Assembly (NCBI GenBank): GCA_029339505.1
Contig: JAQISU010000155.1
Span: forward strand, 15,887,501-15,951,500
Length of the DNA stretch: 64,000 nt
Reading direction: 5' to 3'
Source of the DNA: Unio delphinus
Lineage: Eukaryota; Mollusca; Bivalvia; Unionida; Unionidae
Shown: in pieces, positions 34,474 through 62,078 of the stretch
Layout of the letters: every line of letters begins with the position of its first letter
Position numbering within the stretch: position 1 is the first letter of the stretch
Notes under the pieces: model-generated
Told to the model about the DNA's origin: nothing
The model's input: the letters and a program-made list of their open reading frames with translations, nothing else
The model's database searches: none
Made by a program: the position numbers and the translations under genes

Positions 34474-34478
34474 AGTGT

Positions 34479-36289: not shown

Positions 36290-37219
36290 TCAGTTGTTGG
36301 AGAATCGTTTTTGAAAATGGAGTTTCACTGTGACTTTCCCTTTGGTAAATGGAATATTTTGACCTAGCTCTCCTTTTATAGTAATGTTGACACTGTCGAA
36401 ATACGACTTTCTGACGGGTAAATAATGAGGATGCACAAATTCGCGGTGAACGTGATAGGTATTTCCACCTTCCTCGTCAGCGGTAGTGGTATCCACTTTG
36501 AAAGGAATGACACGCAGTAACGGTACAGAGGTGTGTCCTACCACGTTGTACTCCACCACATCGGAGTACACAAACATCAAGTTGAGTCCTTGGTTCATTT
36601 CTACAGGGAATCGAAAACTATTTTGTAAAATCCAAGTTACTTCTTATGCCTGGTATTTCTTTTTTTGTTCGGGAGCATCTTGAGGTCTCCACCTAAAATA
36701 TCATACAATTCAGGGCAAAAGGTAATGGCTATTATTTTCTTCTCTGAAAATTTGATCATGAGGCGACGAGCCACTTTAATGTTCTCAAAGGTAATACTTT
36801 CTTTGATTTTTCCAGGGGTTTACCAAACACAACATTGAACCTGGTTGCAATCGTAGTCACTAAATGTTGACCGCTAAAATAGTAGCCTGCAGGAATGGTG
36901 AACAATGAGTGGACAGTTGTTTAGTTGTGGGTTCATTTGATTTCTTGGTGTCAATGCCAGTGATGCCTCGTTCATCTAAGGCTTGTTGCAATAGCTTGTC
37001 ATACACTTCAACTGTGAAAAAGTTTTGATTTTCGACGATGTTTTTGATTTGTGTCGGGTGTATTATTTCCACTAAAGCTGCTTCCCAATGATCATCTTGA
37101 TCCAAATGCATGGCTTGAGGTAATTTAGACGTGTAACAACACAATGTGTTGTTAGGAAACACCTCCATGGAACTGTCACTAGGTAACGTTAAGTAAAATT
37201 GGTTAATAGTGTTGTTCAT
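36290..37219 (-). pseudogene. Minor capsid (penton-like, single jelly-roll) protein, frameshifted
   Basis: The N-terminal part (start ATG at 37217-37219, open to 36860) has NQFYLTLPSDSSMEVFPNNT and HWEAALVEIIHPTQ. The C-terminal part (about 36640 to 36290) has FVYSDVVEYNVVGHTSVPLL, PHYLPVRKSYFDSV and a final KVTVKLHFQKR. Both are hallmarks of the penton-like protein of invertebrate Polintons. Between about 36860 and 36640 the reading moves between frames with stops, so the gene is broken at least twice. Its start overlaps the end of the two-TM gene by 17 nt. The role is the capsid vertex. Confidence 0.78.
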
Positions 37220-37634
37220 ATTTCCAATGTTCTTCTGTCGAGGAGTCACTCGAGGTTAAAGGAGTGTCTAAAAGAGGATTGTGATTGGAAGTGTGACTGT
37301 CAGGAGAAGGACTAACGTTGGACGCAAGACTCCCAATATTGTTACTGTTGTTCCCGTTGTAAGAGTATTTCAGGGAAGGATTGGGAAGAAGATACCCGAT
37401 GCAACTACTGAGTAAAATAGTCCACAATTGTTTGTCTCCTTGTTGCAAACTCAAATTAGCAAAGGCTGCACCAATGACACAATACACCACAAAGATTTGA
37501 CAGAAAAAAACGATTTGCGTTTTAGGGACACGTTCTCCACACCACACCCACAAGGGTTGCTTTTGTAAATCTTGCAGAGAAGAAGTGGGTGAAGGAGTAG
37601 TCACTGTGGTTGCTGAAGCTGTATTGAAGGGCAT
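37203..37634 (-). CDS. Two-transmembrane Polinton protein
   Basis: 143 residues from the ATG at 37632-37634 (a longer frame starts at a non-ATG codon). After VPKTQ comes a hydrophobic segment IVFFCQIFVVYCVIGAAF, then QLWTILLSSCIGYLLPNP, and a Ser/Asn-rich tail. I recall similar short two-TM proteins in other invertebrate Polintons. A membrane location is visible; the function is unknown. Intact. Confidence 0.6.
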   Translation of the reverse strand: MPFNTASATTVTTPSPTSSLQDLQKQPLWVWCGERVPKTQIVFFCQIFVVYCVIGAAFANLSLQQGDKQLWTILLSSCIGYLLPNPSLKYSYNGNNSNNIGSLASNVSPSPDSHTSNHNPLLDTPLTSSDSSTEEHWKYEQHY

Positions 37635-37639
37635 GATGG

Positions 37640-38732
37640 TCACTTCTTTTTATAGTCGATGACTTGTGCAGCGTCAATCCAAGAATCAAAACTAGGAGGA
37701 TATCCTTTCCAACGTACTTTGACTTCTTTGACACGACGTTTTCCTATTTTACGGGTTCTTCGTTCGAGAATGCTGTCAATGTCGTACACGTCGTCTTCCT
37801 TTTTGGTGACACGTTGTAACTCAGGCAAGAAAACGTTCCTTTTAATACTTCTCCGTTCATGTCTTCCAATTTATAGACGGTAGGATGACGATCACGCACT
37901 CGTCCAGAAACACGAAACAATTCGGTGGTCCAGTTGGGTAAGTAACCTTTGTCGAAAGTAAGTTTGGTTTTACCAATGCGTACCCAATCTCCCGGGGTTA
38001 ACACTCCTCTACCTTTCTTGGGGACAGCCCTCGTCCGGGACGTACCAAACAGACGCTCAAAAACAGTCACTTCGTTGTCAGGTGTCACCTCTTGTGGGGC
38101 ACGTCCAATGCTTCTATGGTAAGATTGATTGTAGGCTTGGACTAAGTGCAGTAAGACGTCGATGTACTTGAGAGTGTGTTGATGCGTAAAATATTTCCAC
38201 ATGCGTTCTTTCAAGGTACGTTGAAAACGTTCCACGATACTGGCTTTGGTTTCAGGATCTTCGGTGGTAAAAAAATGAATGTCTCGTTTCTTTAAATCAG
38301 AAATTCGGTGCCTTTGTCGGTTTGCCATCGAAGAGGGTGACGACCACTTTGTTTAAACACCAGTTGCAAAGCTGGTACTAACTCTCCGCTCGATTTGGAT
38401 GTCAACGGTACGACCCAGGCAAATTTAGAAAAGACGTCGATGATACAAAACAAATATTTGTAGCCGCGATTGTAGGTGACTAAATGAGAGACATCGGCTA
38501 AATCGGCTTGCCATTGATGATCGATGCCTTCCACTTGAGTGCGACTTCTGTGAAATTTTCGTCGAATGGGTTTGTGTAAAGCGTACGTCGCTTGTTCTTG
38601 TAACCATCGTTGTACTGCTGGTAAACGGAGCTTTTTCAGGCGAGCTTTTGCAGCACGATACAATTTCTGAATGCCTCCGTAACCTGCAGGGTGAGCTGGA
38701 TCGTAGTAAATGCTGGCTAATACCTTCTCCAT
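37640..38732 (-). pseudogene. Retroviral-type integrase with C-terminal chromodomain, two frameshifts
   Basis: The N-terminal part (ATG at 38730-38732) has YGGIQKLYRAAK and the first catalytic Asp in WQADLADVSHL. IIDVFSKFAWVVPL follows, and the second Asp is in QTDKGTEF. The frame then shifts near 38292-38328. The third acidic residue is in ASIVERFQRTLKERM, followed by AYNQSYHRSIGRAP. A second shift near 37744-37828 moves into the chromodomain-like end, DIDSILERR...VRWKGYPPSFDSWI. Family members integrate the element's DNA into the host chromosome. All three catalytic acidic residues are present, but in two frames. Confidence 0.88.
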
Positions 38733-40323: not shown

Positions 40324-40887
40324 TTATACTGGAATGCGTCGCCACTGATTATCTTTGCGTCGTATCAACTTCATGGCAGGTAACACACGTCGTGAAGGGG
40401 TTCTCAATGGACTCAATCGGGACAGTTCTTGTTTGGACAAATCTAGTAAACTCTTTAACATACCAGATCTTTCTTGGACTTTGACTTTGGGGGCAGGTAC
40501 TTTGTGAGCAGCTGCTACTGCCGCTAATGTGGACGAGGGTGTCACCGGTGGAGGAGACGTTTTGGGAGACGCAGATTTCCAATGTTTCATCATATTAGGA
40601 AAAACGGGTTTGGCTGGCATCACCCGCAACGGAGAAGTGGAAGCATCAGAGGCTACTGGCAACGTAGTCCCTACCAAACGTCCTTGTAGATCTTCTCTTA
40701 TAGGTCGTGGTTGACGAATGTAAGGTTGTGTCCTGGCCGAAGTGCCTTTTTTGCGGGTGACCGCTTTAGTCTGTGGACTTTTCTTTTTCTGTGTTTTGGT
40801 CTTGCCACCCTTGTTCTTTTTCTTAGGGGTTTGTTTGGCTTTTTTGTTTTCTTCTTGGGGTGAACTTTGGGAGTATTGGGATCCCAT
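40324..40887 (-). CDS. Lys-rich basic protein, function unknown
   Basis: 187 residues, intact, ATG at 40885-40887. Residues 10-50 are dominated by Lys/Thr/Gln (KKKNKGGKTKTQKKK), and a Pro/Ser/Ala-rich second half ends in RRKDNQWRRIPV. It overlaps the end of the next upstream gene by 190 nt in another frame, and both frames are Lys-rich there. It is therefore uncertain whether this is true gene overlap or the product of an old frameshift. A candidate DNA-binding core protein by composition. Confidence 0.45.
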   Translation of the reverse strand: MGSQYSQSSPQEENKKAKQTPKKKNKGGKTKTQKKKSPQTKAVTRKKGTSARTQPYIRQPRPIREDLQGRLVGTTLPVASDASTSPLRVMPAKPVFPNMMKHWKSASPKTSPPPVTPSSTLAAVAAAHKVPAPKVKVQERSGMLKSLLDLSKQELSRLSPLRTPSRRVLPAMKLIRRKDNQWRRIPV

Positions 40888-42972: not shown

Positions 42973-43335
42973 CTACAGAGAATCAAATCTCCTCCAAAAG
43001 CGACAGTGATTAATATAACGTGTAATTTCGTCCCACTGCCATTCAGGGTAACGGTCAAGAACGATCAAAACATCTTCAGATGTAAACGTACTAAATTGGA
43101 AACAGAGCAAAAAAATACCCTTGATCCAGAGAAATCTGACACGTTGGTTAATTTTTGTCACTTTCCTCTTGTGAATTTCACGACACAAAAGTTCTACAGT
43201 CACCCATTGAGATTTTTCTTTAGCAAGACCTTGCCAAACGTCCTTGTAGATCTTCTCTTGCAATTCGTGTGGTAATCCTTGAATATTATGTTTTAGAGAG
43301 GGCTTATATACTGGTCTAGGTTTGTTACACGACAT
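42973..43335 (-). CDS. Unrecognised 120-aa accessory protein
   Basis: Intact, ATG at 43333-43335. The start contains IQGLPHELQEKIYKDV, which resembles the first helices of an F-box (LPxEL...I). The match is short and I would not assign it. It ends with YINHCRFWRRFDSL. It sits next to the BIR gene on the same strand. Function unknown. Confidence 0.4.
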   Translation of the reverse strand: MSCNKPRPVYKPSLKHNIQGLPHELQEKIYKDVWQGLAKEKSQWVTVELLCREIHKRKVTKINQRVRFLWIKGIFLLCFQFSTFTSEDVLIVLDRYPEWQWDEITRYINHCRFWRRFDSL

Positions 43336-43347: not shown

Positions 43348-44013
43348 TCACTTCCTATCACTAGGTCCTACTAAAGGTAGGTATTGACAATTCGGAGACC
43401 ATCGAGCATGTTCCAGGTAAGCGGAGTCTTTCTGTTCCCACTCGTAAATGGACACACCACAACTGAAACAATTGACTTTATCCCCTTCGCCCAAGTAGAA
43501 AAATCCGGCTCTGGCTAATTCTTCAGGAGTTGGTCCAGGCAGATATTTTGGCCATTTATCTTTGAAGGTTTGGAATCGACTTTTAAAGTGACAGTATTCA
43601 GGCAAACTTGTCGGGAACGAATATTTGACTCTCCTCACTTCTGTTCGATGTAGGTACGATGAAATTCCTAGGAGTCCACGATAACGTGTGGCACCGCTTT
43701 CGCATCCCTCAGGTTTAACACGCACAGCATCACTTTCCAGGGTAGATATAGGGGTAATAGTCATAGCAACGTTCCCACGATATCCTGCTGAATCACTAAG
43801 GTCACAGCGTCTGGCATCACTACAATCGTAAGGTATATCATCGCACTCTGTAACGCAATTACAGTGCATACCGCAAGGACACTTACAGTTTCCTTCCGGA
43901 CAACTTCCGTTGCAATGCATAGGTCTTATCCATCCAGTACGTTTCACACTTGGGAAAGGTACATTTGTTTTACAATCCCCAAGCTTGAATGATGTCTGTT
44001 TAAATGGATTCAT
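43348..44013 (-). CDS. BIR-domain (inhibitor-of-apoptosis type) protein
   Basis: 221 residues from the ATG at 44011-44013, intact. The N-terminal half holds a Cys cluster (CNGSCPEGNCKCPCGMHCNC). The C-terminal 75 residues form a BIR domain: RFQTFKDKW, the GFFYLGEGDKVNCFSCG block with its CxxC, W and D (YEWEQKDSA), and the distal zinc ligands in EHARWSPNC. No RING finger follows. BIR proteins bind and inhibit caspases or their activators, so the likely role is blocking host cell death during element replication. It is one of the few large genes left open. The domain looks host-derived, but the source cannot be told from here. Confidence 0.85.
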   Translation of the reverse strand: MNPFKQTSFKLGDCKTNVPFPSVKRTGWIRPMHCNGSCPEGNCKCPCGMHCNCVTECDDIPYDCSDARRCDLSDSAGYRGNVAMTITPISTLESDAVRVKPEGCESGATRYRGLLGISSYLHRTEVRRVKYSFPTSLPEYCHFKSRFQTFKDKWPKYLPGPTPEELARAGFFYLGEGDKVNCFSCGVSIYEWEQKDSAYLEHARWSPNCQYLPLVGPSDRK

Positions 44014-44048: not shown

Positions 44049-47000
44049 CTATTGGTCTTGGACGATGTCCCTTTTTATATGCTGCCCAATTTCGACGTGA
44101 CCGTACGGTAGAGTAAAGTGATTGGGAAGTCGTACTCTTTTTTGGTACACGATTTGATAGACTTTTTCCAAAGGTCGGCTAACGATTTGGTGTGTGGGTA
44201 AACGGACAATCTTGTGCGGTTCTTGGGTAGTCACTTTAAACGTTTCATCCTGTCCCGACTGTAAGACTTCTTGAAGCACGTCAAAGTTCACCACTCGACT
44301 GGTGCGATAATTGAGAGTCAATCCTTTCACTTTACATTCGGTGTGTATTTCTCCTTGACGGTCTCGGTATTCGTAGCCGTAATGTTTACGACCGCCACTT
44401 GCAAAACATAGAATCTTGTCGTTGGGATGTTCATCGTTCCAGGCTCTTAAACGGTCTCTTTCGATGACAGGGTTACACTGGTTCGGTCGGTGAATGTAGA
44501 TGCAACTGTCCGTGTCAAAATACAACACACGATCTCCTAACAGTTCTAACACTTCGTACAATTTTAAGCGAGCGTGGGCTGTCACGTAAGCCGCAATGAT
44601 GACATTTCCAAATTTGTCGGCTTCTACAAAGTCTAGTTCTTCTTCGTAATTGACTAAGATCAAGTCCTCACGAATTACGTCCACGTGTTTCATGACTTTG
44701 GTTTTGTCGTGAATCATCTGTAAGTAGCGAGACGGCTCGGACAAATACTCCGTCTCGGGTAAAGAGGGTAGTTGTGCCATTTTACCCCACAAGCAATTGA
44801 GCAGCACTTTGGCAAACGATCGCCTTCCTTCGTTTTTCTCGATGTGGTCTAAAGTGATGCCTTCCTGCTCCCGATATTTTTCTTTGAATATCTTTTGGTC
44901 TTCTTGAGTGTGACACCAGGAAGGATAACCTCTAGCTTCTTGTTTTAGTTTTAAAAAGGCATCCACGTAGTCTGCAAAAATACCTTTCTGTCTCTCGTCG
45001 CCCTTGCGGTATTGTTGTGTCTTGGGAAAGTGGTAAATTTCGTACACATCTAACAGTCGATATCCCAGGTCCAGAGCTTTAAACAATTCCACGCTCACCC
45101 ACGTTCCTGTCAAGGCACGTTCTTCCAGGGTGTGATGACAAGGTTGGTCTTGGTTTCACGTTTCGGCACATGTGCGACACAAAGGAAACATCAGTTTTCC
45201 TTGGCAATGGTGAGGTAAAACGGGATGGTACAAGTCTGTGGGTGGTAAGACTTTACACTTGATCAATCCTTCATACTGTCGAATGTGGTCCAAGTCAGTG
45301 TGTTCTGTCATCAATTCTGGATGCCCTACGGGAAAGTGACAATATTTGCACACGTAAGGATAAAGCGAACACACGTCCAAGTATTTGATTTCTTCTCCTT
45401 TCTCTTCGTCCACCTGGTACAGCAAACAGGTAGCATTCGTTCGTCCTCCGTACAAACTATCCCGAGGGTTCAGGGGGTCCACCAACTTGTAACTTTCTAC
45501 AATGCGTTTAAAGTCGGGATCGGTTTTCAAACGCAGATCGTACTCGTGTTACCACATTTCCACCACCTGGTATCCTTGCTGTTCTAACTTCAAACTTCGC
45601 TGACAAGTAGTCTGGTACAAGTCTTCCAAGGTTCGTTGTAAAAACTGATTTTTGGTGTTACGCTGAGGGTAGCATAGGGGACATCCGTGAAATAAACATC
45701 CGTTAAACTCGTACATGATCTGAGGGTTTTCTAAGTCCCATCCATCTACCGAATACGTTCCGATGGTCTTTTCGCCTCCTCCGTTGCGAGTGTGTTGGAT
45801 CCATTTGTCTTCCTTGTCGCACAAGTAATGGAGCCAGCGTAGGGCTTTGACCGAGTATTGACGTTTGACAAAATTTGTCGTTTGAGGACTGATGACAGCT
45901 AGAGTATTTTCGGGCATGAAGCGTTTTCGGTACACTAAGGAACATGCTTTGGCAATGGTACGAGCTTCTTTCAAAGGATCGATCCCACCGTATTCCATGA
46001 ACAATTCTCGAAATTTTCCACAGCAGCGTCGTAAAATGTCCACGTCAGATCGACATTACTTTAAAATTTCTTCTTGAAAGTCAAAGGGGTCCGAGGCGTG
46101 AGTCTGGTACCAAGCATGGAAAGCTTCTCGTTGTTCGGTGCGCATGTTGTCGGGGTCGTAGTCGTCAGCCTCAGGCAAATGGGGTAGAACGGGGTGTTGA
46201 TTGGCTTTGGTATTAAAAAAGTGTGGAAAATAACCTTTAGCCATTTTTGTCATTCCAAACGTTTTAGGCATGCGACTCAAAGGCATGGCCAAGTAACACA
46301 TCGAATCTTTAAACTGTACTTGTCCTACTTGCATAGAAATGATTTTGGCTCCGTTCAAAGTCACTTGAGGCCGTTCGGTACTTTGTTCCGCATAGTATCA
46401 AAGCAGAAATTGCCCATCGTATCCCGAGAAATTGTGAGCCATGACCGTGGCATGGCGATGACACTCTCCGTAACGTTCGATGTCTTCTGGACTCCACGTC
46501 TCGTCGATGGGGTTTAGGATCCATTGTGCAAAATCGGCTCGCGTGTTTGACCCTCAAAAGATTTTTCACGTCCTCCAGGAATCTTGCTGCAGTGAGGGCA
46601 ATGACTAAAGATAGGTTCTTGTATACACTGCTCGCACGCACGGTGAGCCACGCAGAAATTAGGAATGTGAATACCAGTTTCTTGCATGCATTCGAAATCA
46701 AAAAAGATAAAATTCCCTTTCTTCTGGGTATCTTCTGGTTGGGGTTGATATTTTTGAATGAAGCATTCGTGCTCCAAGTCCACGATTTGGTGACAAATGT
46801 GACATCGTTTCTTCCCTCGACAAACGTGTAACTTAACACTATTGGTACGTATGCCTTGTCCACAAGTAGGGCACAATCTCAAAAGCTGACAAGTATTTTT
46901 CTGCTGTGAACCTTGCATCTTCAAATGTTGTTGGTAACAGGTAGGACTGACAAAAGTGCGCTGACAAACATGTTAAAAAATCCACAATATCTAAGTTAAA

Positions 47001-48148
47001 CAAAAATGCACTCTTTCTTGTCCTTTGTCCAGACAAGGTTGAGAGGCCAAACATCCCTCACATTTCGATCCACAATGTTTGTGTTGTTCTCGATTGTTAT
47101 AACCATAATCACATTTTTCACAGTAGTAACTGTATCCCAGGAATCCAGTGATACTGGTAATGGTATCAAAATGACCATCGTGATGATAGACGTGAATGTA
47201 TTTTCCGTCTTTGAAATGGTGGCCTCGAAACAAAAGAGGTCCACGCACTTCTTGAGGGTGTACTTTTAAGGTGTAACGTGAAGCCAAGACGTCTTGCAAT
47301 TTTTGCATTTCTGGAATGCCGCAAGGGCTGTCTCTGGATATCCCCGCTTGCTGTAACAGGAGTTCTGCTTCACTTCGTTGTTTGGCTCGGTCCGATTGTC
47401 AAATAGTTTTCCAGGCTCTTTTCCATTCTACCGTATCGTTCTTGTTGGCATACGTTCGTCCCACGACGACAGCACGGGCTAAACACATCTGGTCTTGAGG
47501 ATTGTTAATTCGGACGAGGCTTAGTTTGGTGTTGCGATGGTTGTCGACCAATAATACTTTTTTGCGTCCGGTCCCCTGGGGAAGAGACACGTGGGTCATG
47601 AACAGTGTGGCTTTTCCATCGGTGATGTGAAACTTGTCGTTGGATTGTTGCACATGTTGAATTTTGTCAATGACTTTGGAAGGTGTTAATTGTGATGGGT
47701 TAGTAAACTCGATCCAAACGGGAGACTTTAAATTATCGTGATGAATAGAAAGTCTCAAGCGATCGTCTTCTTTGGCTTGACATTGCTGTTTCAATGCAGT
47801 TAACACAGAATCCCACACCTCGGTAATGAACCCTTCTGTATTCTCCAAAGGTACATTGGACTCGAAATCTTTAAACTTTACGGCATACGTGTAAGCCGTT
47901 GTTCTAAATTTTCGAGAGGAACGCTTTTCCGTCTCTCGAATGTGACAGTAATTTTCAGGGTTTACTAATGGTGGTGCATTTTGCTTGGACGTCGATTGCC
48001 TGGGTGTAGATTCGGGCTCACTCATGTCATCTTCAAAATCACTGGCATGAATCTGAGCCAAGACTTCAGCTACTGTGCTAGGCGATACATTACGTTTCTG
48101 TCTCTTACTGTTTTCTCCTTTCTCCACAACATGATGCGGTCTTTTCAT
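44049..48148 (-). pseudogene. polB: Protein-primed family B DNA polymerase, multiply broken (copy 1)
   Basis: About 1,360 codons from the ATG at 48146-48148. An N-terminal extension is followed by zinc-binding segments (CPTCGQG, CHICHQI near 46.8 kb), exonuclease motif I (FDFE, about 46.69 kb), AHNFSGYDG (about 46.43 kb), motif A-type DVCSLYP (about 45.37 kb), motif B-type LLNCLWGKM (about 44.79 kb) and motif C YFDTDS (about 44.51 kb). Breaks: TGA at 47399-47401, an insert with a stop at 46966-47005, a frame change near 46.5 kb, TGA 46398-46400, TAA 46056-46058, TAA 45549-45551 and TGA 45156-45158. After the single frame change all remaining breaks are in one frame. It would have copied the element from a protein primer; it is now inactive. 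Confidence 0.9.
46970..47000 (-). repeat. 31-nt sequence duplicated from the 49.56-kb gene, inserted in PolB
   Basis: The 31 bases here are identical to 49556-49586, in the same orientation. PolB copy 2 (59837-59842) shows the uninterrupted sequence: five bases there are replaced here by 35. The net change is +30, keeping frame length but bringing in a stop. See findings. Confidence 0.9.
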
Positions 48149-48281: not shown

Positions 48282-48758
48282 ATGAAAGAACCTACAGAAG
48301 TGGAACTTCTCATCAGAGCTTTACGTGGGGTCATACGAAAGTTTTCTTCAGACAAGCCTACGGACTACTATCCTTCCTTTCGAGATAAAAGTCAAGATAC
48401 TTGCTATATCTGTAAGAAGAAAGGACATTGGGCTACAGAATGTTCAGATCGTGACAAAAATAAAAAAGGTACCAATAGAGACAAAAGTCAAGATACCTGT
48501 TATTATTGTAAAGAGAAAGGACATTGGTCTCCAAACTGCCCTAAGAAACAACAGGAGCAGGAGGAGGAGGAGGAGGAGGTGGAGGAGGAAAGAAATTCTG
48601 AACACTAGGAGGAAGAGGTACCCTCTCCCAAGGAAGAACCCCGACACGTTCACAAAGACAAGAAAAGAAGACGAAACGAAACTGACGAAGAAAAAGAAAA
48701 AGCTGTGACAGTAAAGAAAATGAAAAAACAGAAAGAGGGAAACAGAAGAAACCTATGA
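48282..48758 (+). pseudogene. Two-zinc-knuckle (CCHC) protein, one nonsense codon
   Basis: From the ATG at 48282 the frame is open to TAG at 48606-48608, then continues open to TGA at 48756-48758. Two near-identical zinc knuckles (CYICKKKGHWATEC and CYYCKEKGHWSPNC) are separated by a charged linker that repeats DKSQDTCY. They are followed by a run of Glu, and after the stop by a Lys/Arg/Glu-rich tail. CCHC knuckles bind single-stranded nucleic acid. This would be a nucleic-acid-binding protein divergently paired with PolB. The duplicated 30-residue module suggests internal gene duplication. Confidence 0.7.
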
Positions 48759-49009
48759 ACTTTTTAAAAATGGTATTGTGTTATGTTATGTTGTGATATT
48801 GAATTGTAACGTTTGTACTAGAATATACCAGAGAGAAAAAAACGTAAGTCTCTCTTGGTTTTGATTTTATAGAATAAGAACCTACACTCATACATTGCTT
48901 CACTCACACGTATATCATGGGTTTAAAAAAAAATAATAATAAAAAGGACTTTTGAGTTTTCATTGAATTAAGCAATTGAAATAGTATTTCTTTTCGAAAT
49001 AATTGGAGT
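48759..49009. other. Non-coding spacer between convergent genes
   Basis: An AT-rich stretch holding 3' ends of the zinc-knuckle gene (+) and the coiled-coil gene (-). An imperfect hairpin, ACCAGAGAGA with TCTCTCTTGGT, lies near 48828-48861. No ORF is seen. Confidence 0.4.
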
Positions 49010-49025
49010 GGCCCTGAAAAGGACC
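49010..49025 (-). terminator. Histone-type 3' end stem-loop (minus strand)
   Basis: On the - strand the sequence reads AAC, then GGTCCT-TTTC-AGGGCC, then ACT: a 6-bp stem with one G-U pair and a 4-nt TTTC loop. This is the layout and near-consensus sequence of the stem-loop of replication-dependent histone mRNAs. It starts 33 nt after the stop of the 49059 gene. A purine-rich block (TCGAAAAGAAA) follows, as a histone downstream element would. Confidence 0.8.
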
Positions 49026-49058
49026 GTTGGTGTTTTGTGTGTTTAAAACAAAACAAAA

Positions 49059-49703
49059 TCAGAAACGGGACGAAATCCTCTTGAGCTGACTTAAGCCTTT
49101 GCCACGGCCAAGGCCTACTTCGGGACTGGTAGTTCCTGTCAATGATTTGGTAGAAATCACTAACGGTGGTATGGCAGACGCAGTCACAGAGAGATCGGGT
49201 TGTTTAGCTCGAGAAGGTCTTTTTCTCTTCGGTCTTGATAAAGAAGTCTGATACATTTGTTTCAGACTCCTTAACTCAGCTAAAATATCTAAAAGTACCG
49301 TCGTGACCATTTGATTTTCACTATTTTCTTTCTGTCCTTGGTCTTCTTTCTTCTCGGTTGCTGCTGCTGCTACTGTTTCTTCCTGGTGTTTCCTTCTTGC
49401 TTCTTCTTCCTGCTGTTGAATAAGAAAAGCTTGTTCTTCTACTTTCTGTTGTTGTAAAAATCGCTCCAATTCTTCTTTTTGTCTCTGCTTAAAATCATTG
49501 ACGTGTACATAAGAAGAAGCAAAAGGTAAAGAAGGTTCCGGAATAAACTCTTACGATGTTAAAAAATCCACAATATCTAAGTTAAAATCAACTTCTTCTG
49601 GATGTAGATTTGTCATGACTACTAAAGTCACTGCTGGCCCATGACTTGCTGTCTCTACTCCTGTCTCACCCCAATTCATCGTCTTCTTAGTGTCCGCCAT
49701 CAT
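49059..49703 (-). pseudogene. Coiled-coil Gln/Glu-rich protein with histone-type 3' end, one nonsense codon
   Basis: ATG at 49701-49703. The frame runs to 49059 with one TAA at 49551-49553, about 214 codons in all. The middle is a Gln/Glu-rich helix (FLQQQKVEEQAF, LIQQQEEEARRK), likely coiled coil. SRPKRKRPSRAKQ, a bipartite-like basic stretch, follows, and then PEVGLGRGKGLSQLKR at the end. I recognise no family, and it is not a histone. It is transcribed away from the + gene at 49920 and ends with a histone-type stem-loop. Confidence 0.55.
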
Positions 49704-49919
49704 TGACAACTCTGTCTCATCGATTGACTGCGCACAGGCGCTAGTACCTCTATATAGAAAAGGTGACGTCACAGACCGCTCTCTTCCGATTGGATGACTG
49801 TGACTGACTTTTGTAACGCGTGTTTGGATTGGTGGATAAACTCAATCCGTTTCAATCCGCTCTTCCCCTATAAATAACCGCAGTACACGGCATTCGCTTC
49901 ACCTGTTTCTCATTACAAA
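49704..49919. promoter_or_regulatory. Bidirectional histone-like promoter
   Basis: Between the divergent start codons are a minus-strand TATA box (49750-49757), a perfect TGACGTCA cAMP-response/ATF site (49764-49771) and two inverted CCAAT boxes (ATTGG at 49789-49793 and 49828-49832). A plus-strand TATAAATA (49869-49876) is followed by CATTCG (49891-49896), close to the CATTC cap-site motif known from invertebrate histone genes. CCAAT plus TATA in a short divergent spacer is the layout of H2A-H2B gene pairs. Confidence 0.65.
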
Positions 49920-50153
49920 ATGTGGACTAATGTAGAATCTTCTACCCTTGTGTCTACCATGCTGTTTCGGACTGACATACCCATGTATGTCAGATCATCG
50001 TGGAGTGTCATTCATATGACGGATACAGCCTTTTGGAAGAGAAGGGTATACGTAGAAAGACAAGGTTGCTTAAAGAGAGTTCTCTTCTATGGACCCACAG
50101 TGAGGAGAAGTTTAAGGAAGAGAAGAAGATCTGTGAGATGTCCTCTATGTTAA
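49920..50153 (+). CDS. Unrecognised 77-aa basic protein with histone-type 3' end
   Basis: ATG at 49920-49922, intact, TAA at 50151-50153. The N-terminal half is uncharged and Ser/Thr/Val-rich. The C-terminus is strongly basic (RRSLRKRRRSVRCPLC). It is not homologous to a core histone as far as I can see. The mRNA would have a TATA/CCAAT promoter 5' and a histone stem-loop 27 nt after the stop. Nuclear or DNA-binding function is possible from the basic tail; unproven. Confidence 0.6.
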   Translation: MWTNVESSTLVSTMLFRTDIPMYVRSSWSVIHMTDTAFWKRRVYVERQGCLKRVLFYGPTVRRSLRKRRRSVRCPLC

Positions 50154-50180
50154 CAAAATACTGTTAACATTACACATAAC

Positions 50181-50196
50181 GGCCCTTTTCAGGGCC
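50181..50196 (+). terminator. Histone-type 3' end stem-loop (plus strand)
   Basis: AAC-GGCCCT-TTTC-AGGGCC-ACT: a perfect 6-bp stem and 4-nt loop, matching the histone mRNA 3' stem-loop consensus. It begins 27 nt after the stop of the 77-aa gene. A purine-rich TCGAAAAGATA follows 9-12 nt later, where a U7-pairing element is expected. Family knowledge: such mRNAs are cut and left without poly(A), and are made in S phase. Confidence 0.85.
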
Positions 50197-50284
50197 ACTC
50201 ATAGGTCTCGAAAAGATATTAGCTTTCATTGCCACCATTTTTCCCCTTGTCGCTCTACAGTTCCCTATACCCATACAAATCATA

Positions 50285-50520
50285 TTCCCCATGTTCCATT
50301 TCCCTTGAGGCTAGATAGGCCCAAATAGTTCCCATGTTCAATTCCCCTTGAGGCTAGATAGACCCACTATGTTCAATTTCCCTTGAGGCTAAATAGGCCC
50401 AAATAGTTCCCCATGTTAAATTTCCCTTGAGGCTAGATAGACCCACCATGTTAAATTCCCCTTGAGGCTAGATGTGCCCAAGCCCTGTTTGACTGGATTT
50501 TCTATTGAGGCTAGAGTGCC
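50285..50520. repeat. Minisatellite with CCCTTGAGGCTAGATAG core
   Basis: Six to seven imperfect units carry the core TCCCTTGAGGCTAGATAG, alternating short (about 32 nt) and long (about 45 nt, with CCCAAATAGTTCCC) spacers. It lies about 90 bp beyond the histone-type stem-loop, at or just outside the right end of the Polinton-like element. No ORF. Confidence 0.85.
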
Positions 50521-50524
50521 CCCT

Positions 50525-50660
50525 ATTCCTACTTGCATGAGTTCGAATCTAAGATTCGGCTAATGTAGTTATGTGACAAAGCTTCTCGTGGGTCGGTAGT
50601 TCTTTTCGGGGGGTTTCCTGGGTTCTTCCTCCACCAATAATAATGGCCGCCAGAGCTAGA
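50525..50660 (+). repeat. SINE fragment
   Basis: GAGTTCGAATCT resembles a tRNA B box. It is followed by GTCGGTAGTTCTTTTCGGGG, a GGTTTCCTGGGTTCTTCC stretch and CCTCCACCAATAATAATGGC. I associate this central domain with widely spread invertebrate SINEs. The A-box part is missing. Confidence 0.45.
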
Positions 50661-51345
50661 TCCGCGGTTTTCTCGCCCAATCGGGCTTCTTTTTAAATTT
50701 GATTGCGGGAAATATTTCCAGATTGCGGGTTGCGGTGTTTTGGGTTGGTTTCTGATTTGTGTCGCCGTACTTTTCGCTGCATCAAACTGCTATTAATTTA
50801 TCCTCATTCAGTTTCACATTGGCGCTAGTGACGATAATATATAACAATTCTTAATGAATCCATTATTCTGGATGTATCTCCATAGATTTATCTCACATTG
50901 TTAATTTTTTTGCTGAAATTGCGAAACATGAAGAACGATGCGCGCTTCAAATTTCAAATTTCAATTAAGATAGCATATCCATAGCATATCAATTCTGGTA
51001 ACTGTAGCATATAGGGCAGAGGCACTATTATCACTTTATCACTGTTATAATATTTTTTTACAACTTACATGTTTGGTATTTGGTTCTTATTGCTCTTCAG
51101 ATTATAATCTTCAAATTGGGCGGTTTTAGGCTGCTTTTTAAAGGTACACGGGCGGGAATTGAAAAAAGTATCTGGCAACACTGCTGACCGCCATGTATAG
51201 CATATCGTGTGCTGAAAATGGCGTTAAATCCTACAACAACAACATTACTTTTTTTTAGAAGATACACATTGTTTTGTCTTCTGTGTAATTGTATCGTTGG
51301 TATAGCTACAATGTCAGTCACTCCAGTAATAGCCAAATACGTAAT
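50661..51345. other. Non-coding, nothing recognised
   Basis: No supported gene. Short ORFs at 51097-51336 (-) and 51209-51412 (+) overlap on opposite strands and run into the (GT)n tract; I treat them as chance. Confidence 0.4.
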
Positions 51346-51347
51346 TA

Positions 51348-51349
<2 letters not shown>

Positions 51350-51392
<43 letters not shown>
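51350..51392 (+). repeat. (GT)n microsatellite
   Basis: About 20 uninterrupted GT dinucleotides. Confidence 0.98.
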
Positions 51393-51398
<6 letters not shown>

Positions 51399-51429
51399 CG
51401 ATTTTAACGTAGCTTCAGTAAGTTTTATC

Positions 51430-51712
51430 TCATATGGCCACAATGTTTGAACGGAGGCAGTTTATTGTGATGTCTAGTACCGGGGCATCATGCAATAGAC
51501 ATGTAACATAGTGCCACACCCAGTCACATTATTCTGACATCAGGCCGACCATGCATAACATTGACCTCAACATGTTGAGCGCCAAACGAGGCAGATGCAA
51601 GTACCATTTGTATAAGTCTTTGGCATGAATCGGCCGCAGTTTGAACTTGCGACCTTCAGCATCAAAAACGGACGCTCTAACCACTTCGGCCACAGAGGTG
51701 GTCACATGAGCG
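51430..51712 (-). repeat. tRNA-derived SINE
   Basis: On the - strand a tRNA-like head has an A box (GTGGCCGAAGTGGTTAGAG) and a B box (GGTCGCAAGTTCAAACT) at normal spacing. A tail with TGACTGGGTGTGGCACTATG follows. The head resembles Leu/Ser tRNAs, but the cloverleaf is not complete. The total is about 280 nt, typical of a full SINE. Confidence 0.7.
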
Positions 51713-52330
51713 GTCACTTAAATTGGTAATATTCTAATACAAAACGCAAGTTCTTTAAGAGTGGCACCAAAGTATACTACGATAATAGCACTTACCAATA
51801 TTTCCGTTCTGGTCATGCTCGAATTCCAGAAATTTAGCTGACAATGTAAGAAACTTCGTCATGTGATTGTGAAGGAAGAAAATGCGCCTTATACAATACA
51901 AATGCCTTTTTCCCGCGTAATTGAAATTTACTCGTAAAAGATATAACTAGACCTATTGGTGAACATTTTACGTACCATTGGTTCTGGACTATATTCACTC
52001 TGATGTAAGTTTCTTCTCTTTTCGGAATCAAATTCTAACACAAGTAAGTAGATGTCTTATTAAGTTCGGTTGACATATATTGCCGTGTGCTGAAAAGGAC
52101 GGTAATCGTGGAATGCAAAAGTCAGTTAAAGTAGCGTTCAGTTTCATTCACGAAATGAAGCTATTCTATCGCGTTCAACAACATGCATGTTTTTATTCAA
52201 TTCGTTAGAAAAGTATATCCCATCTAAAACTGAAAGCCGAACGTCACCCACAACGCTGTTTATTTTGAAAGTAAGACGTGGACCGAAAATAAAATATCAA
52301 AGTAGATGTCTGACATTGTAGGACTAGAAT
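51713..52330. other. Non-coding, nothing recognised
   Basis: No ORF with support, and no repeat that I can name. Confidence 0.4.
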
Positions 52331-52334
52331 GTAT

Positions 52335-52505
52335 CATGACAGTCTACTTGTACATAGAGAAACTATAAGAATACAAGAATGTGTGAAAACAATATACGTG
52401 TACAATTGAGAAATACGAGAGTACTGCAATGTGTGATAACATTCTACTTGTTCAATGGGGAACAACAAGTGTACTGTAGAGTGTGATAACAATATACTTG
52501 TACAA
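52335..52505. repeat. Short tandem repeat, period about 51 bp
   Basis: Four imperfect units are marked by ATACTTGTACAA-like blocks near 52345, 52395, 52446 and 52493, alternating with GTGTGATAACA. Confidence 0.7.
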
Positions 52506-53160
52506 TTAAAACTTTTAAATCAAGAAGTAAAATACATTCTCTGTTCTTTATCCATGACTGATTAAAAACTGGTATTCTCGTGACTGCCGTTCTCTGCACT
52601 TGGAAATTTGATATTCAATAATACAAAGTGAATTCCATGCTTATGACAAATAACATCATTAAAATTTCTTAAAGATTAACGTTATTTCACCTTTGAAAGC
52701 ATTCAGCTTTTCAGGTAGCTCTTCCACATCGCTGTAGTCGGGGTTTTCTATAACTTCCTGAAAAACATATATACAAACATGTGCAACAAAATGAAAAGGC
52801 AATTATTTGTCATCATTTGAGTAGATCGTCTCAATTTGCATCTCTGATCAGGAAACATGTTCTTTAGAACCAAGCAGACACAATAACAGGTCTTCTCGTG
52901 AATAAGCAGTGTTGATGTGACTTTCAGTTTAGAAGTAGAAGCGATGAATGTTTCCAAGACGGCTTTCATGGCAGCAACATATAATGTCAGATAAGCACCA
53001 TTTTCATTCAGAGTCGAATATACATCATTAACATTTTGATGAAAACCCTTTGTCCATATATCCATCCATCTAGAAGTAATTTGGATAACAAAGATATCGA
53101 GATCACGGTACCATTTTCATAACACCAATAAGACATTATTATCGCCATGTGGTGAAAATC
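52506..53160. other. Non-coding, nothing recognised
   Basis: A 105-codon minus-strand ORF (52748-53065) shows no motif and has no start context or neighbours to support it. I see no other feature. Confidence 0.35.
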
Positions 53161-54779
53161 GCATGTCGACATGGATTCCGTTCAGAAGAAGTAGCATTAG
53201 AAAATCTTTACAGATGGTAACCATGTCAACCAAATTGAATGGGCATTGGTCTTTTTTATATAGTAACTTGACTTCGAAAGAAGTCTTTCAGCAAAAACCT
53301 CAAGATGATATTACTATACCAGAATTTCCAAGATGGCCGCTGTGACTGGCATATATTTTGTCCGAATAGGACCATTTTCATTTAGAAACAAGAGCATCTT
53401 ATGATGAATCTGTAGAGCTCAAACAGGTGTTCGTTCAATACACCAGCCTACATTTTATATAGTATACATCAAACGTGACACGGGTTTAACACGGTGAACT
53501 CTGACTGGCTCCAAGATGAAAAGCGTTTCAGGATGTGTAAGTGCATGACTTTGTTTTAAGTATTTGGATTATTTGTAGTCATTTGCAAACAAAAGGTACA
53601 AACATGTGAAGAATGCGTGCGAACTGTTGTTCTCTAGTTTACATTCCTAACAAACGTCTGAACATTACACGATCAGTGACATAATCAAAATAGGAGGAAG
53701 GAATAAACGTGCATGCTAATTACGGTCGTAATTGCGAATGTTATATTCAAGCCGTTGGCATTACTCTCCCGCAACCTACCTTTCGAGAATGCTTCCGTCG
53801 AACATTTGAGAAAACATTTCATCGAATGCACACCACAAATGCACCATAAAGGAAGATGAAAGATGCAAAGCATCGATTCCCGGCAAGACAGTTTGTCATT
53901 GAGTCTAGTAAATTAATAAATGTTCGTTTTGACATGGATCCCGTCCCGTCTTATTAAAAATTGAGTTTGATAGTCTAGTCTGATTGAACATATCAGCATA
54001 TCATACAAATATAAGCAATAAAAACATTTTGAAGTTTGTACAGCACGTTAAAGGAGATGTGTAAACATGATATTTGGCTAATCTGAGCAAACACTGGATA
54101 TAAAATAGAAAAGAAATACGTAAAGAAGCATTTAAATAATGTTAATTATGAATGTCCCATAATCATGTATACATTTTAAAGAAGAGTCGTAATCGTGTAC
54201 ACGTTTTAAATAATTTCACACAAAGTCATAACTATTTAAATAATGCAAACTACAAAACGTATCATAATCATGAATACATTTTTAACAAGAGTTCATCGAC
54301 TGGACTGGTTCAATAATACTGGATTATTAAAAATTCAGAGAGATCAACGAAAGACCATTTCTTTCTTTTAAATGCTGAGTGTTGACATCATCGTTGACAT
54401 TATTCAGCGATAACCGGATTTTCAAATTAATTGATGTGTTGGATATATTGGATATCAGCTTGGCACCATTCATTATGCTGAATGATTTTATTAACTTTCT
54501 TCTTCCTACAAGATGTATTTTCATTGGTTAATTCGAAGGTCACCATGACATGACCCCATAGCGATCTATGTCAGATTTTCATGTAGGAAGAAAAAGGTTT
54601 CATAAGAAGTCGTCTGGTGGAAAACCCTTGTTGATATTACTTTCTGTTGTCGATGAGTAAACATAACATAACAAGATTTTCAATATATAAGCAATTAGGA
54701 CAAGGTTCGAACCAATTCTTTCTTAGTTCCAGCTATATATACATCATAAGAAGTCAGTTGGTGAAAGCATAATGTCGAT

Positions 54780-57200
54780 ATAATAATAATAGTAATCAGT
54801 ACTTTGTATAGCGCCTAATCTGTCAAAGCTCTAAGCGCTTTACACCATCAATAATGGTATAACTACACTACAGAATAACAATGACAAAAACAATGAAATT
54901 AGAAAACATAAAAACATGCTGAAAACATATAAGATATAAAACATGATTAGGTCGCTAAGGTTGTCCCTGCAGTCGAAACAGGTGAGTCTTGAGAATACTT
55001 TTAAAAGGGACCACTGCGTCTTTGTGTCTAATTTCAACGGGCAATTCGTCTTTGTGTCTAATTTCAACGGGCAATTCGTTCCACGTCGCTGGGCGCTGGT
55101 GTGCAAAAGAACGTTGTCCATATGACTTTGTTTGCACCTTGGGAACAATGAGTATACGATTATCAGAAGAAGAATGTAAAGATCTAGCTGGTGTATACAC
55201 ATGAGTAAGGCTGGATAGGTATGTTGGACTGGAGTCTGTCATTGAAATATAGCACAGAGAACAAATTTTGTGTTTGATTCTGTATCGAACTGATAGCCAG
55301 TGTAGGGTACATAGCAGTGGAGAGGTGTGCTCTGATCGAGGTGCTCTAAAGATGATCCGTGCAGCTGTGTTTTTAACTTTTTGAAGTTTCTGGAGTAAAT
55401 ATTGTGATGAACCAGACAGAATTCAGTTACAATAGCCACGTCTTCAAAGTACTAATGAACACACAAGTGTTTTCGTAAAATCCACTGAGAGATATTTACG
55501 AATGAAACTGATGCATCTCAATTCAAGATATGCAGCCCTGCAGATGTTCATGACATGTAGGTGCAACGTGAGAGTACTGTCTGTAACGCCTAGATTCAGC
55601 GCTGACGGTGATAATTTAATGTTGGTGGTGCTGATATTTATTGTCTGAGGTAAAGGATGTGAATGAGAAAGTCTTTGTGTTGTGATCAGAATAGCCTCAG
55701 TTTTATCATCATTCATCTGCAGCTTGTTACATGTCATCCATGATTTCACATCCGAAATGCACTTCTCTACTCCATTGATGGTAGCATCAACTTCAGTTGG
55801 GTGGCTAGACTTGTATATTTGGGTGTCATCAGCATACATTTGGTGCGACACTGGGTGATGATCTATGACACTTGAGAGCGGCTGAGTGTACAGAATGAAG
55901 AGAACAGGTCCAAGAACAGATCCCTGCGGAACACTACAACATACGCCAGCTGGACTGGAGTGTATTCCATGTGCTGATATAAGTTGTGACATGTTGACTA
56001 AGTAGGACTTGAACCACTATAAGGCGATAATATGAATGCCAAATACATGCTAGGGTCGGTGAAGTAATATATCATGGTCTATTATGTCAAATGCTGCAGA
56101 TAAATCCAGGAGAGTGAGGACTGTAATTTTTTCCACTATCTAAAGCAGAGAGAATGTCACTAAATACTTTCAGAAGAGTAGTTTCCGTACTGTGGCAAGG
56201 GCGATATGCAGACTGTACATTGCTTGAAAGACTGTTTGAATTTATATGAGATACAAGTTGAGTTAGAACAACCTTTTCTAAGATTTTTGATATAAAAGGG
56301 AGATTAGAAACTAAGCGGTAGTTCTTTAAATCGTTATGGTCCAGTGTTGGTTTCTTCAACAGTGGCTTTACGATCGCAGTTTTGAAAAATGAGAGATTTC
56401 TCGTGATGAGAGAGATATATTAATAACATCAGTTAGTGAATTTAATAGTGGATATAAGCACTCAAGCAGCAGTGATGTCGGGATTGGATCAAGTTCACAA
56501 GATTTTGGTCCACTTTTCATCACGATTGTCCGTACTAAATCTATAGAAACTGGTCCAAATGCTCCTAACTGTTGTCGCTGAAATTCTGCATCATACCTGT
56601 ATGGTGACTAATCAGTTGAAATTGTGCTGTCAAGCGAATCTCTAATGGTTTGAACTTTGTCATCGAAGAAATTTGCAAATTGGTCCAGGTAGGTCTATTG
56701 GAGAGAAGGTCGTTGAAAGTGGTGTACATTTGTTCCTTGACATTCGCATGTTAGTTATCTCGAAGAGCTCTTTGCAGCTGGAACTCTTCGTGACCTTAGT
56801 ACTGTAGTGGGATGATTTGGCTTTATGGACTATGTTTGTGACGTTCTTCTTAGCGGATTCGTAGATTTGTTTATGAATAGTTAGTCTGGTGGAAAGCCAA
56901 AGCCTCTCTGCTTTTCGGCGATGTATTTTAGCAGTACAAAGCTGGTGCCTAACCCTCCTATACAAAGGAGAACACTTTTTTTAATAGTCACTCTGCATTT
57001 AAATTCTGGGGCATGTTTTTCAAGCAATGGACGCAGGCAATTATCAAGTTGTTCCGCTGTAGGATGTAAGAAAGTTGTTAGGTTTTCTTGGATGTCATGC
57101 ATGAATTTGGTTCTATTTATCATACGGAGGTTTCTCTTAGTAGCAAATAGAGATGGAGGGTTAGGGACTGATACGTCAAGATGGCATACATGGCAGAGGT
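54780..57200 (-). mobile_element. 5'-truncated non-LTR retrotransposon, decayed reverse transcriptase
   Basis: Read on the - strand. A linker segment (QLDNCLRPLLEKHAPEFKC, about 57.0 kb) leads into RT fragments: KNYRLVSNLPFISKILEKVV and SAYRPCHSTETTLLKV (56.1-56.4 kb), then PQGSVLGPVLFILYT and the catalytic YADD in QMYADDTQIY (55.8-55.9 kb). NKLQMNDDKTE follows, and later the conserved end (YGQRSFAHQRPATWNELP, SILKTHLF at 54.95-55.2 kb). Several stops and frame changes break it. The 3' tail is an (AAT)n-like run beside a GCGCCTAATCTGTCAAAGC motif. The endonuclease part is absent. The type is CR1/L2/Jockey-like; the clade is not decided. Confidence 0.85.
55019..55078 (-). repeat. 30-bp tandem duplication inside the retroelement ORF
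   Basis: A 30-base segment (starting TTTGTGTCTAATTTCAACGG on +) is present twice with no difference, duplicating ten codons (DELPVEIRHK) in frame. Confidence 0.9.
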
Positions 57201-59092: not shown

Positions 59093-61197
59093 ATGACCAT
59101 GACCCACGTGTCTCTTCCCCAGGGCACAGGACGCAAAAAGTATTATTGGTCGACAACCATCGCAACACCAAACTAAGCCTCGTCCGAATTAACAATCTTC
59201 AAAACCAGATGTGTTTAGTACATGCTGTCGTCGTGGGACGAACGTATGCGAACAAGAACGACACGGCAGAATGGAAACGTGCCTGGAAAGCTATTCAACG
59301 ATCGGACCGAGAAAAACAAAGAAGTGAAGCAGAACTCCTGTTACAGCAAGCGGGGATATCCGAAGACACCCCTTGCGGCATTCCAGAAATGCAAAAATTG
59401 CAAGACGTCTTGGCTCCACGTTACACGTTGAAAGTGCACTCTCATCATAATGTCACCATCAGACGAGGACATACTGCATTACATTGCGATCAAGCAATTG
59501 TTGAACAATTTAATCGGACACTTGCTGAGCGGTTATTTGGATCTCAAGACGCGAAGGAATTTATTCAGGATAAACGATCTCGTGAATGGGTCAGAAGTGC
59601 GTGGACCTCTTTTGTTTCGAAGCAACGATTTCAAACACGGAAAATACATTCACGTCTACCAGCACAATGAGTATTTTGATACCATTACCAGCATCACTGG
59701 ATCCTGGGGTACGGTTACTACTGTGAAAAATGTGACTATGGTGATAACAATCGAGAACAACACAAGAGTTGTGGATCAAAATGTGAAAAATGTTAGGGAT
59801 GTTTGGCGTCTAAACATTGTCTGGACAAAGGACAAGAAAGAGTGCATTGCCCTGTTTGTCAGCGCACTTTTGTCAGTCCTACCTGTTACTAACAACATTT
59901 GAAGATGCAAGGTTCACAGCAGAAAATTGCTTGCCAACTGCTGAGATTGTGCCTTTCTTGTGGACAAGGCATACGTACCAATAGTGTCAAGTTTCACTCT
60001 TGTCGAGGTAAGAAACGATGTCACATTTGTCGCCAAATCGTGGATTTGGAACACGAATGCTTCATTCAAAAACATCTACCCCAACAAGATGACCAGAAGC
60101 AAGGAAATTTTTATCTTGTTTGATTTCGAATGCATGCAAGACACCAGTAATCTCATTCCTAATTTCTGCGTGACTCACATTATTTGTGTGACAAGGAAAA
60201 CAAATGTATCAAACACGCCCACAAGATAGGAGGCGAAAAGACCATTGAAACGTATTTGGTGGATGGCTGGGCTTTAGAAAACCCTCAGATCGTGTGCGAG
60301 TTTAACGGATGCTTATTTCACGGATGTTCCATGTGTTACCCTCAACGTGACACAAAAAATCAGTTTTTACAACGGATCATGGAAGCCTTATACCAGACTA
60401 CTTGTCAGCGGCGTTTGAAGTTAGAACAGCAAGGATACCAAGTGGTGGAAATGTGGGAACATGAGTACGATCACTGATTGAAAACCGATCCCGAGTTTAA
60501 ACGCATTGCGGAAAGTTACAAGTTGGTGGACCCATTGAACCCCGGGATAGTTTGTACGGAGGACGAACGAATGTCACCTGTTCTCTGTACCAGGCGGTTG
60601 AGGAGAAGGGAGAAGAAATCAAATACTTGGACGTGTGTTCGCTGTATCCTTACGTGTGCAAATATTGTCACTTTTCCGTAGGGCGTCCACAATTGATGAC
60701 AGAACACAATGACCTGGACCACATTCGACAGTACAAAGGATTGATCAAGTGCAAAGTCTTGCCTCCTACGGACTTGTACCATCCTATTTTACCTCACCAA
60801 TGCCAAAGGAAACTGATGTTTCCTTTGTGTCGAACTTGTGCCGAAACGTGCAACCAAGACCCAAATTGTCAGCACAGCCAGGAAGAACGCGCCTTGACAG
60901 GAACGTGGGTTAGCGTGGGATTGTTTAAAGCTCTTTACCACTTTGCCAAGACACAACAATACCGCAAGGGAGACGAGACATGGAAAGTTATTTTTGCAGA
61001 CTACGTATATGCCTCTTCGAAACTAAAACAAGAAGCTAGCGGCTATCCTTTCTGGTGCCACACTCCCGAAGACCAAACGAATTTCAAAGAAAAATATAGG
61101 GAGCAGGACGGTATCGCTTTAGACCACATCGAGAAAAACGAGGGAATGCGATCGTTTTTGCCAATGTGATGTTAAATTGCTTGTGGGGTAAATTGGC
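59093..61197 (+). pseudogene. polB: Second PolB fragment with internal deletion and integrase patch (copy 2)
   Basis: Homologous at the DNA level to copy 1 from about 47610 down to about 44790, in opposite orientation. It starts within the N-terminal region and stops just after the motif B-type LNCLWGK equivalent, so motif C is absent. About 0.8 kb is missing between the exonuclease I region (about 60175) and the LCDKE... segment (60184), corresponding to roughly 46640-45825 in copy 1. A 151-bp stretch of foreign integrase sequence sits at 59443-59593. There are several frame changes (59.6-60.0, 60.1-60.2, 60.48-60.55 kb). DVCSLYP is visible at about 60.63 kb. It is derived from a related but not identical element. 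Confidence 0.85.
59443..59593 (+). repeat. Integrase-derived 151-bp patch within PolB copy 2
   Basis: It matches 63038-63188 in the second element's integrase at equal length and the same strand, with roughly ten differences by eye. Flanking PolB sequence continues normally on both sides, apart from about six bases replaced relative to copy 1. Confidence 0.9.
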
Positions 61198-61199
61198 AT

Positions 61200-61478
61200 A
61201 GAGATCGTCTTTACCCAGGACGGAGAGCGGCAGGGAGGGCGAATCCGACAACCTTTTAAAGATTCGTCTATTTGGTAAACCACGGCTTCCTCCAAAATTG
61301 TAAAAAAAGTGCGTCCATTTAGCAAACCAAGGCTTGCTCGAAATCGTAGAAAAAGGGACGCAAAGTCGTTGTCGCACCCTCACTGCTGCTATGGGTTTAA
61401 ATGTTTTTATAGGATTTGAACCGAATATCTTATCAGGTCCGGTACAATATTTTGATCTCGTGTGATGCAAATTTATCT
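61200..61478. other. Spacer between PolB copy 2 and the second element's ATPase
   Basis: No clear gene. It has a short repeat: GGTAAACCACGGCTTCCTCC and GCAAACCAAGGCTTGCTCG at about 61274 and 61321. ORFs here on the - strand (61084-61470) run over the PolB fragment and look like chance. Confidence 0.35.
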
Positions 61479-62078
61479 TTATAAATCCATGTGGGATTCA
61501 CTGAGCATGACTAAAGAAATTTCTAAAGAATTATAATCCATATCACCGCCGCACCAAGTCTGCCAAATATTTCGTAGCGTATGTGTGTCAACTCCGTTGA
61601 ATACAGCAAGAATATTGCAGTTTTCTCTGATCACTTTTGGTATTTGAGTGTATCGTTGAGTGACATATATCACATCGGTATTTTGATGCCTGCCTCTGGA
61701 AAATATCCTAGCAGGATTCTTTTGATTGTCTAACATGTCATCATCATAGACGACTAAATTATTAATACTTCCATCAATATCATCAATACTCGGTGTTTCC
61801 TCAATATCGGATATACACTCAATAATATCCTCATCGATTTCCGATTTTGCTTTCTCGTTAAAATCCTTTAACACCTCGTAACATCGCTGATCGTCCACAC
61901 TCGGGGATCCTAAATACAACATGTCCCATTTCATCCATCTCGTTAACAAATTAAGTAGCAGTTGTGTCTTGACACTTCCAGATGGTCCGATTATTATCAT
62001 GCGAACAGAACTCGGTAGCGCTACATGGTGTTTACCTGGTTCTCGTGCTTTTGTCGCCGAAAAATCAATTACATTCAT
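61479..62078 (-). CDS. A32-like DNA packaging ATPase with altered Walker A
   Basis: 199 residues, open, ATG at 62076-62078. MIIIGPSGSVKTQLLLNLL is the Walker A loop, but the Gly before Lys-Thr is Val (GSVKT instead of the family's GxGKT). Walker B is NLVVYDDDML. IFSRGRHQNTDVIYVTQRYTQIP and NCNILAVFNG follow, typical of A32/FtsK-HerA packaging ATPases of Polintons and poxviruses. The sequence is different from the ATPase at 41280-42011, so it belongs to another lineage. The frame ends at TGA near 61481 and may be truncated at the C-terminus. The Walker change would probably abolish ATP binding. Confidence 0.8.
   Translation of the reverse strand: MNVIDFSATKAREPGKHHVALPSSVRMIIIGPSGSVKTQLLLNLLTRWMKWDMLYLGSPSVDDQRCYEVLKDFNEKAKSEIDEDIIECISDIEETPSIDDIDGSINNLVVYDDDMLDNQKNPARIFSRGRHQNTDVIYVTQRYTQIPKVIRENCNILAVFNGVDTHTLRNIWQTWCGGDMDYNSLEISLVMLSESHMDL

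Follow-up and report, generated by a model that had tools for sequence, protein, structure and literature searches.

Histone messages provide the classic example of a 3' end formed without polyadenylation, and this end counts as the mark of replication-dependent histone genes; among viruses, bracoviruses carry histone H4. In animals, SLBP binds the stem-loop, U7 snRNA base-pairs with the downstream element, and CPSF73 cleaves between stem-loop and downstream element, which yields an mRNA without poly(A) (PMC9756948, PMC7026596, PMC1924863). The core of the mouse downstream element, AAAGAG, pairs with CUCUUU of U7 (PMC7026596). A preprint on virus gene transfer deals with histone-related 'Histoid' genes of adomaviruses and mentions viral proteins that resemble histones; the term 'stem-loop' does not occur in its text (PMC11071296).

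We analysed a stretch of 64,000 nucleotides from Unio delphinus (hereafter the window), in which two divergent genes of a Polinton-like element, here called A and B, are followed by histone-type hairpins. The likeness to the metazoan histone 3' end lies in a 6-bp stem, a 4-nt U-rich loop, AC-type flanks and a purine block shortly behind, with the signal just past the stop codon of single-ORF genes. Genes A and B differ in that they encode no recognisable histone and sit in a virus-like carrier, and their processing is predicted from sequence. Compared with the adomavirus 'Histoid' genes and bracovirus H4, the common point is a virus that borrows from the histone system; there the protein was borrowed, whereas here it is an mRNA 3'-end signal on non-histone genes. 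The element resembles Polinton/Maverick elements and adintoviruses in its PolB (DNA_pol_B_2), its rve integrase, small accessory genes near the polymerase start and a presumed capsid-like block on one strand (with a weak Capsid_N match), and differs from them by an extra A/B cassette, whose divergent genes have histone-type 3' ends, and by a BIR gene. The original prediction knew of no report of such 3' ends for Polintons or adintoviruses; among the matches listed in the literature searched, we likewise found no account of them on Polinton/adintovirus genes, and novelty is limited to that literature.

Hairpins behind genes A and B

To locate structured RNA signals, the 64 kb of the window were searched on both strands against 4227 Rfam families. 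The covariance search returned two matches to RF00032 (gathering score 34 bits), one on the plus and one on the minus strand; up to E 5, the window gave no third. Site B (50176-50220, plus strand) scored 35.0 bits (E 2e-6), above the gathering score, and was the sole match in the window over a curated cut-off in the complete Rfam library. Site A (48985-49030, minus strand), detected at a permissive threshold, scored 29.8 bits (E 1.8e-4), below the gathering score. The stem-loop of gene B, GGCCCTTTTCAGGGCC (50181-50196, plus strand), begins 27 nt past the TAA, and that of gene A, GGTCCTTTTCAGGGCC (49010-49025, minus strand), 33 nt past the TGA, so that both lie in sense orientation shortly 3' of a stop codon. 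Each has a 6-bp stem and the loop TTTC, and a single difference, a C-G pair replaced by a U-G pair, separates GGCCCTTTTCAGGGCC from GGTCCTTTTCAGGGCC. The RF00032 matches thus agree with the earlier claim of histone stem-loops at these distances behind both divergent genes, and the flanks claimed as AAC and AC were found as AAC...ACTC at both hairpins.

A purine-rich block had also been predicted behind each hairpin. Blocks are present at both sites within the RF00032 matches, as candidate histone downstream elements of gene A (GAAAAGAAATA, 48985-48995, minus strand) and gene B (GAAAAGATATT, 50210-50220, plus strand), but the block is short: its GAAAAGA begins 13 nt (B) or 14 nt (A) 3' of the stem. 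The 3' ends of A and B align with each other over about 60 nt, stem-loop and TCGAAAAG included. AATAAA and ATTAAA were absent on the plus strand from the gene B stop to 51500, where the scan ended, and on the minus strand from gene A to 42093; the AATAAA at 48938 belongs to the adjoining zinc-knuckle gene. A host histone cluster adjoining the element was considered as a source of the signals and rejected, as the window held no further RF00032 match and no histone turned up in the 20 ORFs scanned out of 21 in the cassette.

To assess how often such hairpins arise by chance, we applied a relaxed hairpin rule to the window and to 100 first-order Markov sequences. The window contained three hairpins, whereas the Markov sequences averaged 0.25 and never had more than 2; the third, at 60284 on the minus strand, was without histone flanks. 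An exact 18-nt histone-like core was found in nine IMG/VR loci (loop TTTC in three, TTTA in six), and none of the nine gave an RF00032 match (three searched at E <= 0.1 and six at E <= 0.05), so that the core alone is insufficient. From a reading of their ORFs, the three contigs with the TTTC loop look like phage DNA. Two of the six contigs with the TTTA loop (L008 and L009) hold tRNA genes, and L008 also holds a tmRNA. Six matches to the Norovirus CRE family, all below cut-off and one per unit of a tandem transposon array elsewhere in the window, were taken as chance.

Traces of the 3' ends in relatives

To compare the 3' ends with those of related genes, we back-translated read-through protein tails into degenerate code, aligned them to the window and scored the alignments against 200 peptide and 200 DNA shuffles. 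Tails past the usual stop occur in one of the 22 gene A relatives (P0021) and one of the two gene B relatives (P0002, without the stop that P0001 and the window keep); the comparison draws on these two proteins, the other relatives being uninformative at this place. On the A end of the window, the P0021 tail scored 63.6 (best peptide shuffle 31.5; best DNA shuffle 27.5), in an alignment that spans the stem-loop, the purine block and about 25 nt further, and the purine block GAAAAGAAATA is compatible with the back-translated tail. On the B end, the same tail scored 42.2 (27.3 and 28.2, respectively). The P0002 tail scored 54.0 on the A end (34.1 and 41.2) and 40.7 on the B end (30.5 and 34.6). 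In ungapped comparison, the hairpin letters of P0021 were compatible with A at 14 of 16 positions and with B at 15 of 16, and those of P0002 with B at 15 of 16 and with A at 14 of 16. Three of the six stem pairs of P0021 are certain from the protein, and the rest hinge on codon bases; the P0002 tail forces an A opposite C in the outermost stem pair, which allows at most five of the six pairs. Both read-through tails are compatible with the 3' ends of the window over the stem-loop and purine block.

The tails also bear on whether the hairpins could be chance structures without function in one decayed element. The window copy is indeed broken and site A falls under the gathering score, but matches with E values of 2e-6 and 1.8e-4 lie within 1.2 kb of each other, both rightly placed, and the tails of two relatives score over all shuffles. 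We consider such an accident very improbable, and these values, with the Markov control, bear out the earlier judgement that chance occurrence was very unlikely. The mutual alignment of the two ends could instead reflect an inverted repeat of about 60-70 bp that flanks the A/B cassette and acts at the DNA level (as cassette ends, in inversion or in replication), with the hairpin incidental and the likeness maintained through gene conversion or recombination. In favour of this, the ends are inverted copies that align beyond the hairpin, and the tail of the gene B relative P0002 fits the A end better than the B end, as if exchanged. However, at both ends the stem, the loop, the flanks and the downstream block all conform to the histone model, a fit that a DNA-level repeat does not need, and both stand just past stop codons in coding orientation, which leaves a purely DNA-level role quite unlikely. 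Judged from the sequences of the window and of these relatives, genes A and B of the Polinton-like element bear real histone-type 3' ends, of which traces are found in relatives. The proposal that the element borrowed the histone 3'-end system gained support in part, from two signals that are correctly placed and oriented and from traces in one relative per gene.

Genes A and B and the predicted processing of their messages

Gene A (49059-49700, minus strand), delimited by tblastn of relatives and by stop-to-stop ORFs, encodes a protein for which a long helix is predicted and which contains the basic stretch PKRKRPSRAK, and the window copy has an in-frame stop at 49551-49553. By tblastn, P0003 aligned to window positions 49679-49062 at 81% identity and P0006 to 49700-49065. 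A single-sequence search (254 candidates) recovered 19 relatives with 61-93% identity, and a profile search (7993 candidates scored) recovered 22. The PKRKRPSRAK residues were invariant or nearly invariant in the 19 aligned relatives, and the protein also has a short acidic-hydrophobic motif, VNWDxVDFLSSQEF. AlphaFold placed a helix at residues 58-107 of P0003; the gene A model was confident in the helices only, with a mean pLDDT of 64.5. These features suggest a helical regulator that probably acts in the nucleus. Gene B (49920-50153, plus strand), read from its translation as a single ORF, encodes a 77-aa protein with a basic C-terminus; its structure model was of low confidence (mean pLDDT 54.6), and both of the two candidates searched were relatives, P0001 (84% identity) and P0002 (83%). 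Gene A is intronless over its coding part, as P0003 aligns over its full predicted length to contiguous window DNA, and gene B is one uninterrupted ORF; both may have introns in their untranslated regions.

The parent contigs of P0001 (gene B) and P0019 (gene A) are listed as equally long (1455) and from the same sources, so that they are probably one contig and the A/B pair has probably been kept together. In P0023, the beginning of gene A is fused to part of a polymerase, which ties gene A to such elements elsewhere. With 22 gene A and two gene B relatives, the sequences indicate that the cassette is not private to the broken copy in the window. A PDB sequence search gave no match for gene A (E <= 0.1) and one match for gene B, at E 0.5. 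In IMG/VR, a search that mostly reaches close relatives returned no loci related to gene B or to the gene A alignment, and a GTDB search of the same reach returned no contigs related to gene A.

The start codons of A and B are separated by a presumed divergent promoter (49701-49919), in which a motif scan found TATATA at 49751, TGACGTCA at 49764, ATTGG at 49789 and 49828, and TATAAA at 49869. The TGACGTCA at 49764-49771 is a perfect palindrome beside the two ATTGG motifs, and we take it to be of CRE type. The upstream part of P0001 back-translated onto the B-side promoter, TATA box included, with a score of 96.0 (best shuffle 33.3). On the A side, the upstream stretch of P0007 was marginal (31.6; best shuffle 30.2), and that of P0010 (18.3; best shuffle 24.7) did not support promoter conservation.

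A divergent pair of single-ORF genes with TATA boxes, TGACGTCA and ATTGG between them is the layout of histone pairs. This fits the second origin put forward in the original prediction, namely that the element captured a histone gene pair whose coding parts were replaced. Alternatively, these parts could have changed too far to be recognised; in either case the 3' ends would be leftovers that may or may not still function. The layout stood up, but the proteins showed no likeness to histones: Pfam detected no histone similarity in the gene A or gene B protein, nor a histone in the 20 stop-to-stop ORFs scanned out of 21 in 48900-50700, as expected from the claim that neither gene encodes a histone. 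In addition, the tail of P0021, whose gene A is 61% identical to that of the window, still fits the signal, which argues against mere leftovers. We regard the replaced histone pair as unlikely when set against a working signal; as an account of origin it is possible, and compatible with processing by SLBP and U7.

As the stem-loop, flanks and purine block occur in the right order on both A and B, the best explanation is that the host SLBP/U7 machinery would cut both messages to ends without poly(A), likely tying their expression to the host S phase, a reading to which we assign a probability of about 0.7. SLBP would bind the A and B hairpins, U7 would pair with GAAAAGA (by sequence match), and cleavage would fall about five nt past the stem. 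With 3' ends formed in this way, both messages would be stable during S phase, when they would be translated, and would be lost rapidly once it ends. Given that gene A looks like a regulator, the cassette may let the element make this regulator at the time of host DNA replication. The signal likely arose by capture of a histone 3' end from the host, which would then have become common to both genes through duplication or gene conversion. The broader proposition, that an animal Polinton lineage put regulatory genes under the host histone 3'-end system, so that SLBP/U7-processed viral messages without poly(A), confined to S phase, serve as an S-phase sensor, we hold to be slightly favoured. If true, the histone 3' signal would be movable and usable to time non-histone genes, a way for a Polinton to sense S phase would be suggested, and poly(A)-selected RNA-seq would miss such viral transcripts.

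The carrier element and its surroundings

The carrier had been called a Polinton-like element, and its polymerase and integrase bear this out. The DNA polymerase B gene lies in pieces at 44049-48148 on the minus strand, with Pfam DNA_pol_B_2 matches of 4.1e-14 (45156-45548) and 3.2e-8 (44049-45155); the remaining pieces, which gave no meaningful Pfam match, are presumed polymerase from their position. The integrase gene is in two pieces (37744-38732, minus strand), of which 38292-38732 matched rve at 7.4e-9 and 37744-38328, without a meaningful Pfam match, was assigned by position. A zinc-knuckle (CCHC) gene at 48282-48608 on the plus strand (zf-CCHC 5.5e-12) converges on gene A. Capsid support amounted to Capsid_N at E 0.05, below cut-off, and the protease and further capsid genes that we name in the element are assumed, having no Pfam support; an ATPase was seen only near a second fragment (Pox_A32 1.3e-11). 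The minus-strand gene set is taken as being of Polinton/adintovirus type. The PolB piece had no match in the PDB sequence search (E <= 0.1), and no loci related to the PolB piece, the integrase piece or a 116-aa protein were found in IMG/VR by a search that mostly reaches close relatives. To look for terminal repeats, we compared 28001-37500 with 49001-56000; the best inverted match was an A+T-rich pair of 19/20 (30487-30506 and 50833-50852; E 0.077), too short to establish terminal inverted repeats, and the best of 30 Markov pairs was 18/20.

The window copy is decayed, as shown by the polymerase and integrase in pieces and by the in-frame stop of gene A. An exact 31-bp copy links 46970-47000, at a polymerase frame break, with 49556-49586 in gene A, just before its in-frame stop, and resembles a templated insertion. 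Another exact pair, of 26 bp, lies at 40674-40699 and 43234-43259. The element also contains a BIR (inhibitor of apoptosis) gene at 43348-44013 (Pfam 2.8e-23). Close behind the gene B 3' end, a minisatellite at 50288-50481, with units of about 35-43 bp and a higher unit of 79 bp, possibly marks the element edge. The ORF at 55444-55992 looks like that of an animal retrotransposon.

The second Polinton fragment (59098-61225 and 63038-63188) is more decayed and in opposite orientation, and its polymerase pieces are 86-92% identical to those of the first. It gave no RF00032 match and no match to gene A or B except the polymerase part of P0023; the Pox_A32-type ATPase ORF near it lies at 61479-62078. 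At the other end of the window, positions 1-29000 consist of units arrayed head to tail, in which six landmarks recur every 4427-4455 bases. The units contain an ORF for a Mutator-like transposase (Pfam Mutator 6.5e-72, from the single unit searched); an ORF on their opposite strand has the zinc-binding region of a homing endonuclease (zf-His_Me_endon 2.3e-8, again from a single ORF searched).
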